Shown here one piece after another: positions 2,077-7,581 of a stretch of 8,379 bases of DNA. Origin of the DNA: Chloroflexota bacterium (GTDB lineage Bacteria > Chloroflexota > Anaerolineae > Anaerolineales > Villigracilaceae); assembly GCA_021796155.1 (NCBI GenBank), contig JAJYOO010000082.1, positions 1 through 8,379 of the forward strand, in the 5' to 3' direction. How positions within the stretch are numbered: position 1 is the first letter of the stretch; every line of letters begins with the position of its first letter. The notes beneath the pieces were generated by a model, which ran no database searches, was not told the origin of the DNA, and saw only the letters and a program-made list of their open reading frames with translations. A program made the translations under genes and the position numbers.

Positions 2077-2700
2077 CTATTTGCCTTGTTTCAAAAATTT
2101 CTTCGTCTCCACGATTTTAGCTTCTTCCACTTTACCCATCTTTTCCCAATAATTCAATAACTGCGTGATGGTCAACACCGCGTGAAGATGGAAGCCTGCT
2201 TGCTCCAATGATTCTTTTGCGCCGGATTGACGATCAACTAAAACAACAACATCTTTTACAACCAAACCTGCGCCGGTTAATTTTTCAATGGCTTCGAATT
2301 TGCTTCCGCCAGTGGTGGCGAGATCGTCAATGACAACGACTATCTCGCCCGCGTGATATTCGCCTTCGATCTCGGCTTTCGTGCCGTAAGCCTTTACTTC
2401 CTTGCGCGGATAGATCATCGGGTAATTGCCTTGCAGTGAAATCGCGGTTGCAATCGGAATTGCCGCGTAAGGCAAACCGGCGATGCGATCAAATTTCAAA
2501 TCTTTGAGTAATGGTAAATACGCCGCGCCAATTTGTTCAAGCAGTTTTGGATACGAAATGATCTGGCGCAAGTCAATATAGATTGGCGATTGCAATCCGG
2601 ACTTCAAAGTGAAGCTGCCGAATTTGATGCAGCTTGCGGACAGCAGATCGTCGGCGAGCTTGGATAATTCGGCATTCGATATTCGTGCCTCGTCGTTCAT
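2077..2700 (-). CDS. pyrE: Orotate phosphoribosyltransferase
   Basis: 207 residues, the usual length of the family. It makes orotidine 5'-monophosphate from orotate and PRPP, step five of UMP synthesis, in the cytoplasm. The PRPP-binding signature is VVVIDDLATTGGS at 121-133. A flexible-loop segment follows the pattern PRKEVKAYGTK (98-108), and the N-terminal GSFTLKSG..SPIYIDLR (28-45) is typical. I chose the ATG at 2700 rather than an in-frame ATG 40 codons upstream, because AAAAGGAG lies just before it and the upstream stretch is inside pyrF. Only 16 bases separate it from the pyrF stop, so the two are cotranscribed. Its first ~11 codons are encoded by a period-7 DNA array (see the repeat entry) and look like an extension relative to usual family N-termini. 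Confidence 0.95.
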   Translation of the reverse strand: MNDEARISNAELSKLADDLLSASCIKFGSFTLKSGLQSPIYIDLRQIISYPKLLEQIGAAYLPLLKDLKFDRIAGLPYAAIPIATAISLQGNYPMIYPRKEVKAYGTKAEIEGEYHAGEIVVVIDDLATTGGSKFEAIEKLTGAGLVVKDVVVLVDRQSGAKESLEQAGFHLHAVLTITQLLNYWEKMGKVEEAKIVETKKFLKQGK

Positions 2701-2716: not shown

Positions 2717-3604
2717 TTAACGTTTGCCGAACATCGAAGATCGAATTTCGAGTATCTGATCTCGCATCTCCGCCGCGGCACGCTTTGGATTGTCGGCGCG
2801 AGCAATCGAACGCGAAACATTGATCAACATCCCGCGTCCATCTTGACCTAAGCCTGCTCTCATTGCCGATTCCAAATCTCCGCCTTGAGTTCCAACTCCG
2901 GGGACGAGGAACCACAAGTCCGGCGCGGCGGCGCGAACGCGTTTCATCGCGTCGGTGTGCGTTGCGCCGACGACGAGACCGATATTATTTTTGGTATTCC
3001 ATTGTTGAGCGAGATGAGCAACATATTCATATAGCGGCATAGACCGTTGACCGTTGACCGTTGACTGTTTTGTTTCATCCATCCACCGTCCACGGTCCAC
3101 GGTCAAGTCTTGCAAATCACCCGAACCAGGATTGGAAGTCTTGCATAAAAGGAATACGCCCTTTTCCTGATTCTTGATGAATGGCTCAATCGAATCTTTT
3201 CCAAGATATGGACTCAGTGTAATGCAATCCACACCGAGATTCTCGAACGCGGATTTTGCATAGGCTTCTGCGGTGGATGCAATGTCGCCGCGCTTTGCAT
3301 CGAGGATGATCGGAATCTTCGAGCCGAGTCGATTCGATTCTTCGTGAATTGCATCAATGACTTGCTTGAGCGCAGCCCAGCCGTCCGCACCAAAGACTTC
3401 GAAGAATGCCGCGTTGGGTTTGAAAGCCGCGGCGTAAGGCGCAGTCTGTTTAACAAGATTCAAGCAAAAGTCGAGGGCAGACGCGGCGGTGGGCGAATGA
3501 CCATCCGCCCCTATGAGATCGGGAATGTGCGGGTCGAGTCCAACGCAAAGTAAAGACGATGAATCGTCCACTCGTCGTTCAAGAAAAGAGAAGAAGGATT
3601 CCAT
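2717..3604 (-). CDS. pyrF: Orotidine 5'-phosphate decarboxylase, type 2
   Basis: 295 residues. It decarboxylates OMP to UMP, the last step of the pathway. Substrate and catalytic motifs are visible: GLDP (22-25), FKPN (61-64), LDAKRGDI (101-108, catalytic Lys104 and Asp107), VGATH (212-216), PGVGTQGG (235-242) and NVSRS (262-266). The long form with this motif spacing is the subfamily 2 enzyme, usually about 270-280 residues. The excess is explained by an insertion at about residues 167-188, encoded by a heptad-repeat hairpin between the conserved QDL and PLYEYVA segments. The last ~12 codons also lie in a heptad array. No Shine-Dalgarno is visible before the ATG, where an octad palindrome lies; still, the N-terminus matches the family. 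It is followed 16 bases later by pyrE. Confidence 0.93.
   Translation of the reverse strand: MESFFSFLERRVDDSSSLLCVGLDPHIPDLIGADGHSPTAASALDFCLNLVKQTAPYAAAFKPNAAFFEVFGADGWAALKQVIDAIHEESNRLGSKIPIILDAKRGDIASTAEAYAKSAFENLGVDCITLSPYLGKDSIEPFIKNQEKGVFLLCKTSNPGSGDLQDLTVDRGRWMDETKQSTVNGQRSMPLYEYVAHLAQQWNTKNNIGLVVGATHTDAMKRVRAAAPDLWFLVPGVGTQGGDLESAMRAGLGQDGRGMLINVSRSIARADNPKRAAAEMRDQILEIRSSMFGKR
2728..2769. repeat. Heptad array at the 3' coding end of pyrF
   Basis: Six consecutive 7-base units in register on the plus strand: CGAACAT, CGAAGAT, CGAATTT, CGAGTAT, CTGATCT, CGCATCT. It encodes roughly the last 14 to 17 residues of PyrF. The consensus CGAANAT is the family of the heptads at 4745-4779 read with an offset. 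Confidence 0.6.
3042..3104. repeat. Heptad-built hairpin inserted in frame within pyrF
   Basis: Three exact GACCGTT units plus GAC (3042-3065) form the left arm. CCACCGT followed by CCACGGT units (3083-3104) form the right arm. The arms pair at 18 of 22 positions around a 19-base loop, and the mismatches recur every seven bases. The segment is 63 bases, a multiple of three, and keeps the pyrF frame open. It encodes residues about 167-188, which have no counterpart in the family as I know it. Confidence 0.8.
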
Positions 3605-3616
3605 ATCTTTATGTTA

Positions 3617-3673
3617 GAAGGTTTGAAGGTTGGAAAGTTTGAACGTTCAAACCTGCCAACCTTTCAACCCTTC
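3617..3673. repeat. Octad palindrome in the pyrB-pyrF gap
   Basis: Octads GAAGGTTT, GAAGGTTG, GAAAGTTT lead to a centre GAAC/GTTC (3641-3648). Units of the complementary kind (CAACCTTT, CAACCCTT) follow. The halves match at 22 of 28 positions as an inverted repeat centred between 3644 and 3645. It lies 13 bases upstream of the pyrF start and could form a long hairpin in the transcript. There is no T-run next to it, so it is not an obvious terminator. Confidence 0.75.
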
Positions 3674-3686
3674 GACAAGCTCAGGG
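3668..3686. repeat. Small dispersed palindrome, CCCTTCGAC...CTCAGGG type
   Basis: The sequence CCCTTCGACAAGCTCAGGG lies between the pyrB stop and the octad palindrome. Its reverse complement shares the CCTGAGC-five bases-GAAGG core with 7785-7802 in the leader region. From memory, this core is scattered through many bacterial genomes, but I cannot count copies here. Confidence 0.5.
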
Positions 3687-3699
3687 CAGGCTTGTGAAC

Positions 3700-4680
3700 T
3701 TACGCTTTTCCTAAAACCATCGCCAGCAATGCCATTCTCACATACAAGCCATATTCCATCTGACGGAAATACGCGGCGCGTGGGTCGTCATCGAAGTCGG
3801 GGCTGATCTCGCCGACGCGCGGCAGCGGATGCATAACCGCCATTTCTTTTTTGGCGGACTTCATGATGGCGGGATCAATCACGTACGCACCCTTGACCTT
3901 TTCATAATCGGCGGGATCTTCAAATCTTTCCTTTTGGACGCGCGTTACGTACAGAACATCGGTTTCGGGCAACACTTTTTCAAGCGACGAGAACTCGGCT
4001 TGCGGAACTTTTTTCTCGGCGACTTCATCCATCACTTCCTTCGGCATCTTCAAAATGTCAGGCGAGACATAATTCAACTTGATGCCATTGAATTGCGAAA
4101 GCAGACGCGCCAGCGAATGGACGGTGCGTCCGTATTTCAAATCGCCGAGCATCGTGACGGTGAGGTTATCGAGCCGACCAATTTCTTCCATGATGGTGAA
4201 CGTGTCGAGCAAAGCCTGCGTGGGATGTTCGCCCGTGCCATCGCCCGCGTTGATAACCGGTTTGCGCGCGGCTTTTGCCGCAATCGCCGCCGAGCCGGTT
4301 TCGGGATGACGAAGCACGATCACGTCCGCATAACATTCGAGCGTGCGAACTGTATCGGGCAGGCTCTCGCCTTTCGACACAGACGAATATTTCACTTCGT
4401 TGATCGGGATGACCGAGCCGCCGAGTCGTTCCATCGCGGCAGTGAACGACGACGATGTGCGCGTGGATGGTTCATAAAAAAGATTGGCAAGGATTTTTCC
4501 TTTGAGCAGGTCGAACGTGCCGATGCGCTCGACCATGCCGCGCATTTCGTGCGCCACGCCGAAGACATATTCCAAATCTTCGCGCTTGAACTGCTTGACG
4601 GAAATAATGTCTTTGCCGTACCAATCGGCTTGCTTGTTCTCGCCGAACGGCAGGTGTTGGGATGAAGATGGTGTGGGCAT
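3700..4680 (-). CDS. pyrB: Aspartate carbamoyltransferase catalytic chain
   Basis: 326 residues. It joins carbamoyl phosphate and aspartate, step two of UMP synthesis. The carbamoyl-phosphate site is [12 protein letters not shown] (68-79), with the mobile-loop Lys103 in [13 protein letters not shown] (152-159), [12 protein letters not shown] (179-190) and the aspartate-site motif HPLPRVGEI (284-292). The C-terminus [21 protein letters not shown] is close to what I recall of the animal CAD domain. No regulatory-chain gene (pyrI) is adjacent. A good AGGAG lies seven bases before the ATG, and that AGGAG is itself one unit of an octad array. The 95-base gap to pyrF holds two palindromic repeats. 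The long plus-strand open frame over this gene is a shadow. Confidence 0.95.
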
Positions 4681-4734
4681 GTTTAGTCTCCTAGTTTGGT
4701 AGTTAGATAGTTTGATAGTTTTGTAGTTCGATAG
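4679..4734. repeat. Octad array running into the pyrB start codon
   Basis: Seven 8-base units in perfect register, each beginning CTA on the minus strand (for example CTATCAAA, CTACCAAA). The unit at 4694-4687 is CTAGGAGA, which supplies the pyrB Shine-Dalgarno. The last unit, 4686-4679, ends with the first two bases of the start codon. Confidence 0.8.
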
Positions 4735-4744
4735 TTGTTGCTCG

Positions 4745-4828
4745 ATATTCGATATTCGTGATTCGGTATTCGGAAATCGGACTTGATCCAGACGATTATC
4801 TATTCTCTATTATCTAATCTCTCTTTCG
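4745..4828. repeat. Two heptad arrays upstream of pyrB
   Basis: The first array holds ATATTCG twice, then TGATTCG, GTATTCG and GAAATCG (4745-4779). After a 14-base break a second array follows: GATTATC, TATTCTC, TATTATC, TAATCTC, TCTTTCG (4794-4828). It ends two bases before the stop of the membrane-protein gene. Together with the octads, it fills the whole 150-base gap before pyrB, and I see no clear promoter in that gap. Confidence 0.75.
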
Positions 4829-5575: not shown

Positions 5576-5698
5576 CTATCCTCTCACATTCTTTCCAAAG
5601 CCTTTTTCCGCCAGCACTTTGCCGCGCGAGTCCCCAAAGGGGATGATATGCGTCGCACCTTTGGGATAGGCGAATCCGTTTAAGTGGTTAAAGTTCAT
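5576..5698 (-). CDS. Possible 40-residue chimeric ORF (repeat element plus pyrC tail)
   Basis: An ATG at 5698 preceded by AAAGGA opens a 40-codon frame. Its first ~17 codons lie in the inverted-repeat element at 5649-5733. The next few cover a small CCCC-AAA-GGGG hairpin. The last 15 are the duplicated PyrC C-terminus (GKVLAEKGFGKNVRG, against GKVLAEKGFGKNVRE in the true gene). It sits directly upstream of the membrane-protein start. It may simply be a fortuitous frame, or a short translated leader that couples translation to the next gene. Confidence 0.25.
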   Translation of the reverse strand: MNFNHLNGFAYPKGATHIIPFGDSRGKVLAEKGFGKNVRG

Positions 5699-5764: not shown

Positions 5765-5797
5765 AAACTTCCGAAGTCTTCAAGACTTCGGAAGTTT
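5765..5797 (-). terminator. Perfect 16-bp palindrome, terminator of the toxin operon
   Basis: AAACTTCCGAAGTCTT (5765-5780) and its exact reverse complement (5782-5797) are separated by one base. On the minus strand the stem runs into TTTTGT and begins four bases after the toxin stop, so it can end the antitoxin-toxin transcript. The A/T-flanked symmetric structure would also work on the plus strand. The CCGAAGTC core looks like a dispersed palindrome rather than a one-off terminator. Confidence 0.7.
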
Positions 5798-6486: not shown

Positions 6487-7581
6487 TTATTCTCTCACAT
6501 TCTTTCCAAAACCTTTTTCCGCCAGCACTTTGCCATCTTTGAAGGCATCACGCCCACGCAAAACGACGCGTATCACGCGTCCTTTCACCTTCCAGCCTTC
6601 GAAAGGAGTCCAGCCGCAGCGCGTGAATTGATTCTCGGCTTTGATTTCGTATTCGGCATTCTCATCTACTTCGATCCATGTTTCGGGTTGATCGGGAAGA
6701 TGGAAAATCTTTCTTGGATTCGTATACATCTTTTGAACAATATCGTCCACTGTCAATCGTCCATCGTCAACTGCTGTCAACAACAATGGTAACGCAGTTT
6801 CGAGTCCTGGAAAACCTGGCGGAGGAGTCTCTGAATCTTTTTCTTCCAACGTATGCGGCGCGTGATCGGTGGCGAAGCAATCAATGACATCGAGGTTTTG
6901 CCATAACGCGTCAACATCTTCTTGTGCGGCGAGGCGCGGGCGGACTTCTGAACGCCCCCCTTTTCCTTTTTCCCTTATCCCTTGAAGGGAAGAGGGAGTA
7001 GGGGATAAGGGAATGCCGCCCTCAGAGAGAAACAAATGATGCGGACAAACTTCGCACGTTACTTTTATTCCGCGTTCTTTCGCGGCTTTGATTAATAAAA
7101 TTTCCTCTTTCAATGAAACGTGCGCGATGTGAATAGGCCGATCATAAATTGCGGCGAATAAGATCGCGGCGGCCATGCTTCGACTTTCCGCGTGAACCAC
7201 GATTGGATACTGCTTCGGATATTTTTCAAAGTGCGGCATCCATAACGTCATGTCATCGAGACGCAACTCGCCAAAAGTTGAGTCAAGGTACATTTTCAGC
7301 CCCGCAGCTTTATGCGCCAGCGATGGAGCGATCTCTGCATTATCCGGTCCCGCGCCGACGAATTGGGCGTAGTCGCAATGCGCTTTTTCTCTCGCAGCAC
7401 TGATCGCTGCATCGAATGTCGAATTATCGAATATCGGCGGTTTCGTATTTGGCATTGCCAAGATCATCGTGAATCCGCCCGCGAGGGCGGCTTGGGTCGC
7501 GGTGTCCCAATCTTCTTTGTGAATTTGTCCGGGTTCGCGGACGTGGACGTGAGGGTCAATTAAGCCGGGAAGTTTAAGCAT
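6487..7581 (-). CDS. pyrC: Dihydroorotase, CAD-like
   Basis: 364 residues. It closes carbamoyl aspartate to dihydroorotate, step three of UMP synthesis. Metal and catalytic motifs: DPHVHVREPG (9-18; His11, His13), GLKMYL with the likely carboxylated Lys96, VVHAE (His130), HIAHVS (His151, His154), CEVCPHHLFLS (176-186) and ATDHAPHTLEEK (237-248; Asp239). The protein starts directly at the LPGLIDPHVH strand, lacking the ~50-residue N-terminal part of common ~425-residue bacterial enzymes, as in the animal CAD domain. An in-frame TGA two codons upstream rules out a longer form. Residues about 187-212 are an insertion encoded by a 12-bp-arm hairpin. No Shine-Dalgarno is seen, because heptads abut the ATG. 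Its last 28 codons are duplicated at 5576-5754. Confidence 0.94.
   Translation of the reverse strand: MLKLPGLIDPHVHVREPGQIHKEDWDTATQAALAGGFTMILAMPNTKPPIFDNSTFDAAISAAREKAHCDYAQFVGAGPDNAEIAPSLAHKAAGLKMYLDSTFGELRLDDMTLWMPHFEKYPKQYPIVVHAESRSMAAAILFAAIYDRPIHIAHVSLKEEILLIKAAKERGIKVTCEVCPHHLFLSEGGIPLSPTPSSLQGIREKGKGGRSEVRPRLAAQEDVDALWQNLDVIDCFATDHAPHTLEEKDSETPPPGFPGLETALPLLLTAVDDGRLTVDDIVQKMYTNPRKIFHLPDQPETWIEVDENAEYEIKAENQFTRCGWTPFEGWKVKGRVIRVVLRGRDAFKDGKVLAEKGFGKNVRE
6741..6768. repeat. Heptad pattern inside conserved pyrC sequence
   Basis: Four 7-base units in register, TATCGTC, CACTGTC, AATCGTC and CATCGTC, encode DDGRLTVDDI, which is normal dihydroorotase sequence with no length change. It may be chance, because GAC/GAT and GTG/TTG codons favour it. 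Confidence 0.3.
6970..7013. repeat. 12-bp-arm hairpin inserted in frame in pyrC
   Basis: TTCCCTTATCCC (6970-6981) and its exact reverse complement (7002-7013) enclose a 20-base loop. Pyrimidine-rich sequence flanks it on one side (6953-6969). It encodes residues about 190-204, between the conserved PHHLFLS and the SEVRP segment. In CAD-like enzymes, as I recall them, this loop is about a dozen residues shorter. The reading frame stays open. Confidence 0.7.

Follow-up and report, generated by a model that had tools for sequence, protein, structure and literature searches.

The occurrence of a long palindrome inside the gene for an essential enzyme raises the question of how it arrived there, and whether it is an accident of one locus or an instance of something more general. 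We addressed this for pyrF in a window of 8,379 nucleotides (the whole stretch of Chloroflexota DNA that was analysed), the features of which are collected in Table 1. A sequence-only reading had proposed that pyrF carries a 63-base imperfect palindrome built of GACCGTT-like heptads. This was borne out, with one mismatched spacer base in each unit of the arms and an open reading frame that runs through the whole element with no stop and no frameshift. It is also the best palindrome of the gene, the loop in which it lies having a score of 16, with none of the other segments of equal length tested (in 9-nt steps) exceeding 8. As a single strand the palindrome folded better than 200 out of 200 shuffled versions, both as RNA (z −3.96) and as DNA (z −4.17), and a search of the window for known structured RNAs in Rfam gave no match anywhere. 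The exact 63-mer occurs once in the genome; partial matches of 27 bases (96%) and 56 bases (77%) lie in the genes for Mfd and an ADP-forming acyl-CoA synthetase.

Table 1. Positions of the pyr genes and of the inserted repeats within the window.
Feature	Positions	Strand	Details
pyrE	2077-2700	-	
pyrF, orotidine-5'-phosphate decarboxylase class 2 (pyrF_sub2)	2717..3604	-	TIGR02127, E 3e-77; PF00215, E 1.2e-35
pyrB	3700-4680	-	
pyrC, dihydroorotase	6487..7581	-	carries its own in-frame palindromic insert
PyrF loop DLTVDRGRWMDETKQSTVNGQRSMP	3035..3109	-	25 residues (166-190); 9 residues in G001
Imperfect heptad palindrome in pyrF	3042..3104		units GACCGTN / NACGGTC; placed at 3047-3106 by a palindrome scan
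Left arm	3042..3069	+	four GACCGTT-like heptads; read from sequence
Right arm	3083..3104	+	three NACGGTC-like heptads; read from sequence
Second pyrF insert	3491..3513		codons of IGADGHSP, near the N terminus; 23 bases, 2 differences from the type C repeat TAGGGGCGGATGGCCATCCGCCC (compared by eye)
pyrC insert CCCTTATCCC...GGGATAAGGG	6950..7020		residues 188-211, loop after HHLFL; palindrome score 12

The insert was said to lie between the conserved QDL and PLYEYVA segments and to add about 20 residues. Its position and its in-frame, stop-free nature stood up to analysis, and the figure was slightly too high: the loop between Q165 and L191 has 25 residues compared with 9 in G001, a genome of the same genus, a net gain of 16. 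PyrF proteins without the insert were found on alignment, even within the genus, and the element is not conserved across distant PyrF proteins. The insert is not an assembly fault because an identical 295-residue PyrF is encoded on three contigs, the longest of 249,125 bases compared with 167,725 bases for the contig holding the window. An assembly artefact was also ruled out by the nearest homologues: among the 118 loops that could be parsed from the best 120 of 8000 scored homologues, 94 had at least 16 residues, 10 had 10-15 and 14 had 9. In the AlphaFold model of PyrF, modelling being a check that the earlier reading had proposed, the insert appears as a low-confidence loop (mean pLDDT 93 for the model, but 55 in block 171-180 and 68 in block 181-190), and the loop is short in the nearest solved folds, Leishmania OMP decarboxylase and UMP synthase. 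The model of PyrC has a mean pLDDT of 91, with residues 191-207 below 50, so that, as far as such models go, both inserts are compatible with tolerated surface loops.

The remainder of the window contains several related features. The second insert in pyrF, which the sequence-only reading had missed, is a worn GTAGGGGC-type palindrome (score 6); three exact copies of TAGGGGCGGATGGCCATCCGCCC exist in the genome, and the stretch after GLDP has 20 residues in this gene only, compared with 15 in 99 and 16 in one of the 101 family genes parsed. Just before the pyrF start codon lies a non-coding palindrome, delimited as 3620-3669 or 3613-3669, with units GTTNGAAN and a period of 8 (both by eye), similar units being present in Mfd residues 1005-1025. 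A CTTCGACAAGCTCAGGG repeat is found at the end of pyrB (3668-3692), with related repeats translated in PheT (L292) and Mfd (L244 and L248), and upstream of pyrB there are tandem octads TAGTTNGN at 4686-4734 and ATTCGAT-like heptads at 4742-4776. The intergenic palindrome AAACTTCCGAAGTCTTCAAGACTTCGGAAGTTT (5765-5797) is of a type that also occurs inside pyrF of L214 and L142. Finally, the 3' end of pyrC is duplicated about 0.9 kb away (5577-5623 and 6488-6534; 47 nt, 96% identical). The pyrC product itself scores above the cut-off of PF01979 and is matched by the NCBIfam dihydroorotase models, TIGR00857 giving 264.5 bits, below its cut-off of 279.05.

To place the insert in context, pyrF was collected across the bacterial family, the named relatives of which are Anaerolineales (Chloroflexota). 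A pyrF match was present in 127 of 136 genomes, and 120 loci were taken, a sample that leaves out five further full-length matches and fragments; 119 of the loops were parsable (all but L117) and ranged from 9 to 31 residues. A palindrome score of at least 10 was reached by 30 of the 42 loops with 16 or more residues compared with 2 of the 77 shorter ones. Six palindrome types, assigned by hand, accounted for 48 of the 119 genes: GACCGTN heptads (type A, 22 loops), GAAAGAN (type B, 7), GTAGGGGC (type C, 11), CTCACCCC..GGGAGAGG (type D, 2), GAAAGTN (type E, 2; units similar to those of B) and a loose, GACTTCCGAAGTC-like group (type F, 4). The other loops were empty, with 9 residues (21), had a fixed 14-residue form designated M (33) or were left unassigned (17). 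In the type A loops identity at a lag of 7 nt was 0.56, compared with 0.15-0.30 at lags 2-6 and 8-13, and it rose again to 0.50 at lag 14; the lag-7 values of types B and E were similar (0.53 and 0.52), whereas in types C, D and F (0.23, 0.41 and 0.27) lag 7 was not the highest. The genus of the window alone includes heptads (G000 and G002), a GTAGGGGC palindrome (G004), an empty loop (G001) and the 14-residue form (G005), no pyrF having been found in G003. Some loops, L118 and L124 when read by eye, retain a single arm.

The palindromes were also mapped along the gene. With a threshold score of 13, residues 160-199 contained 25 and all other positions up to residue 279 only 2; a further 3 lay at residue 280 or beyond, and 18 preceded the start codon. 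When the threshold was lowered to 10, the loop bins contained 34, residues 80-99 and 240-259 contained 23 and 11, and 29 lay upstream; the two internal groups look like ordinary codons, and one palindrome of each was left at 13. Several palindrome families have targeted the PyrF site repeatedly, which goes beyond the single insert originally described, as does the palindromic insert of pyrC. Among 80 named loci, 55 were parsed and 9 of these had a segment of at least 40 residues, compared with 32 in an empty gene such as that of G001; one of the nine, L081, from a Dehalococcoidia genome, has a 71-residue segment with GC-rich repeats. A 415-residue PyrF (P0002), in which the second half is internally duplicated, was seen on a contig of 2,346 bases.

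The distribution of types was then set against a tree of the PyrF protein from which the loop had been cut out. With nine states, 41 changes were required (43 on a quick tree), and origin in a single clade was rejected for type A (p 4e-127), type B (p 0.005) and type C (p 0.0002). Of the 116 inner branches of this tree, 43 have support under 80. Well-supported branches alone gave at least 8 changes for type A (17-18 in bootstrap trees), at least 4 for C and at least 3 for B. These results bear on the idea that one ancestral heptad insertion has diverged, the other types being its decayed forms. A motif, ..VDGGRWTVDG..STVNGPRSMPLYEYVA, is common, with changes, to many of the nearest homologues, as this idea would lead one to expect. 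However, beyond the rejection of single clades, GACCGT units cannot give rise to the sequences of types C, D and F, and the supported sister genes L130 and L141 on the quick tree differ in state, one carrying a C palindrome while the loop of its sister is empty. A single ancestral insertion is therefore extremely improbable, the least credible of the explanations we considered.

The same heptads were found within other coding regions of the genome, where the sequence-only reading had proposed to look for them. Allowing one mismatch, the heptad pattern gave 80 and 79 matches, the backward control giving 43 and 34, and the 36 exact GACSGT matches fell at 20 places. At 14 of these 20 places the array is read in frame within a long ORF that has a Pfam match (PyrF, Mfd, ADP-forming acyl-CoA synthetase, a TPR/AAA protein, FemAB, a glycosyltransferase, HypF, DUF2298, MutS2, PheT, aconitase, RecJ, GlyQS and an E2 acyltransferase), and the other six are outside or uncertain. 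The same units occur both in genes and between them. The copies have common units but are not near-identical, which is unexpected for a recently mobile element, and no transposase tied to the heptads was found in the genome. A simple gene caller, covering 75% of 408 kb, divided 58 palindromes into 9 in genes, 11 at gene edges and 38 between genes; as it missed pyrF, this split gives too low a number for genes and we did not treat it as a rate, and the Rieske and LuxR-type cases among the nine may be ordinary coding palindromes.

For type C, 28 bases of the insert in pyrF of G004 recur without a mismatch in dispersed copies in G000, G001 and G002. In 12 genomes the pattern GTAGGGGC..GCCCCTAC was matched 0-38 times each (none in one, 38 in G004), with 0-2 for the backward control. 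The GTAGGGGC palindromes occur at 18 places in the genome, and of the 12 inspected none was clearly in a conserved gene, three having an ORF that spans them. A RAYT gene flanked by repeats is a feature of the GTAG REP superfamily; none of the six Y1_Tnp ORFs in the genome was seen to be flanked by these palindromes within the stretch of up to 1.5 kb covered on each side.

Absence of inserts in relatives was examined for PyrF, Mfd, PheT, RecJ and PyrC. At the heptad site of RecJ (read by eye), the place of the G000 heptads is taken by other GACC-type heptads in G002 and G004, by a GGGAATT-like palindrome in G005, by a CTCACCCC-type repeat in G011 and by a short segment in others. Elsewhere RecJ of this genome has a clean 36-nt insert that the other genes of a set of 11 lack; no target-site duplication was seen by eye at this clean empty site, the only one inspected, the others being too diverged. 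In PheT of this genome (11 genes compared) the heptads at one site are shared with G002 only, and at another site there is a different repeat that no other gene of the set has. The Mfd of this genome (L219:11017-14523) has four in-frame repeat-derived stretches, two of them weak palindromes with scores of 10 (5% of windows as good) and 9 (15%). When 23 Mfd genes, its own included, were aligned, the four loops scored at least 10 in 4, 2, 5 and 9 genes, with types that vary by gene. Among 23 parsed PyrC genes, L035, L036 and L037 also reached at least 10 and L034 reached 8, the rest scoring 4-7, mostly with a 13-residue loop; L051 has a different repeat there, which is not palindromic by score (4). 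The loops of RecJ, Mfd and PyrC thus also exchange repeats.

In type A pyrF loops a loop's own arms match one another better than they match the arms of other loops, only 6 of 10000 permutations being as good. No co-variation was detected for the arms of type B (4693 of 10000), and that of type C in pyrF was weak (321 of 10000) and did not exceed the level of the M and empty loops used as controls (293 and 459). In 40 type C copies, in a search for which the pattern fixes the outer 8 bases, the inner 5-base arms took 24 forms and 192 of 200 pairs were complementary, compared with a shuffled mean of 90.5 and a maximum of 124. The pairing in type A loops and in C copies indicates that symmetry is renewed in some families.

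Taken together, we think it probable that the pyrF insert is one copy of a set of dispersed short palindromic repeats that land repeatedly in genes and are kept in tolerant surface loops where the frame stays open, the PyrF loop after QDL having been repeatedly filled, emptied and refilled. A palindrome copy would enter pyrF; in-frame, stop-free events would survive because the added codons fall in a loop outside the barrel core; the arms would then decay or be re-made, and the element would be lost or replaced. Copies may spread by transposition or by copying, survival may reflect loop tolerance only, complementarity of the arms could be kept by hairpin-templated correction, and unit number may vary by slippage. 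The main competing explanation is that the palindrome grew in place, a short quasi-palindrome having been enlarged by 7-nt replication slippage and hairpin template switching with no mobile element. This would fit families that differ in unit sequence but have a common architecture, the period of 7 in types A, B and E, the co-varying arms of type A and the C inner stems that vary yet remain complementary. However, it does not readily explain the same GACSGT units at 20 places, most of them in unrelated genes, the dispersed exact 28-base copies of the C repeat, or the presence in this loop of types C, D and F, which are not heptads, and we regard it as unlikely.

It might also be argued that the loop segment moves among pyrF alleles by recombination, in which case the state changes would overcount insertions. 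Near-identical B loops (KEERGKTDD..LSS) occur in separate clades and in the same frame, and some of the changes may indeed be loop exchange of this kind. Bins G073 and G078 each contain two pyrF genes, with loop types that differ within each pair (a strain mixture or paralogues). Nevertheless, each type still requires an insertion, and recombination among pyrF alleles would leave unexplained why loops of RecJ, PheT, Mfd and PyrC turn over in a similar way, which makes recombination quite unlikely as the overall explanation. Nor does the hairpin appear to be selected in pyrF for a function as RNA or DNA, such as that of a translation pause or an attenuator. It folds strongly and some palindrome is retained at the site in many relatives, but many genes of the family have none, the types differ, loops with one arm exist, the arms of type B do not co-vary, Rfam has no match in the window and the loops of RecJ, PheT, Mfd and PyrC have such repeats too; we consider a function of this sort very improbable. 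Returning to repeated insertion of dispersed palindromes, we tentatively raise the possibility that heptad palindromes form a self-symmetrising class of element defined by architecture (a 6-nt word plus a spacer base, in tandem, in two complementary arms) and not by sequence. Such elements, often free of stops, would spread in coding DNA at little or no penalty and would make chosen loops of essential enzymes into sites that are repeatedly refilled across the family.

A comparison with Rickettsia palindromic elements (RPEs) had been drawn from the start. RPEs are described as palindromic, in frame in conserved housekeeping genes, also intergenic and with several families per genome, the one insert tested being neutral or slightly detrimental (PMC2229807; PMC10969869), and their length is given as 105-146 bp with 12-bp terminal inverted repeats (PMC2229807). 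The pyrF heptad insert is likewise palindromic and in frame in conserved protein genes, and the existence of insert-free orthologues and of the same heptads in other coding regions supports the parallel. Compared by description, it differs in being 63 bp long with arms of 7-nt units; the host is a relative of environmental Chloroflexota, and different families swap at one orthologous loop. According to PMC3733652, the RPEs of R. conorii are in-frame inserts, REPs occur inside genes, GTAG repeats are known from Chloroflexi, and two Xanthomonas species have different REPs at nearly the same position of recB; on that account recB is the nearest precedent for the pyrF hot spot. Type C palindromes are like GTAG REPs in carrying GTAG (certain loops of pyrF have it with one base changed) and in being about 28 bases long in simple cases, and they agree with the description of a GTAG tag on a 20-40 bp palindrome in many copies. 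In contrast, the heptad insert ends without GTAG and has another architecture, and its relatives differ in placement, 14 of 20 heptad arrays being clearly in a gene as opposed to 0 of the 12 tagged C palindromes inspected. The MITEs ERIC, Correia/NEMIS and YPAL/RU-2 are small elements with inverted repeats, in some cases including an in-frame ORF fusion, and target-site duplications are tabulated for them (PMC2229807). At the RecJ site inspected here none was seen by eye. Cyanobacterial short tandemly repeated heptamers (STRRs) consist of heptamer units that form hairpins, and are generally known from non-coding DNA or an intron RNA. The tandem 7-nt units of types A, B and E are similar to these, but are translated and occur in relatives of Chloroflexota. 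Within the literature searched, which excluded subscription sources, the mention in PMC3733652 was the only precedent found in Chloroflexi, and nothing was found for Anaerolineales. The heptad architecture, the phylum and the turnover at one site differ from the systems found in print, and the best reading is that the heptad inserts belong with protein-coding palindromes and probably work like RPEs and intragenic REPs.

In-frame palindromes have so far been described mainly from Rickettsia, and also from Wolbachia, one archaeon and scattered REPs, according to PMC3733652 and PMC2996958. Here they occur at scale in an environmental bacterial family, with dozens of orthologous sites, filled and empty, that differ in type, so that the mode of insertion, the tolerance of loops and a possible supply of new protein sequence can be addressed directly. 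Caution is needed with loop alignments, gene trees and domain models of this group, in which some residues are derived from repeats. Palindromes of multiple types have colonised coding loops across the family, and pyrF is a clear hot spot.
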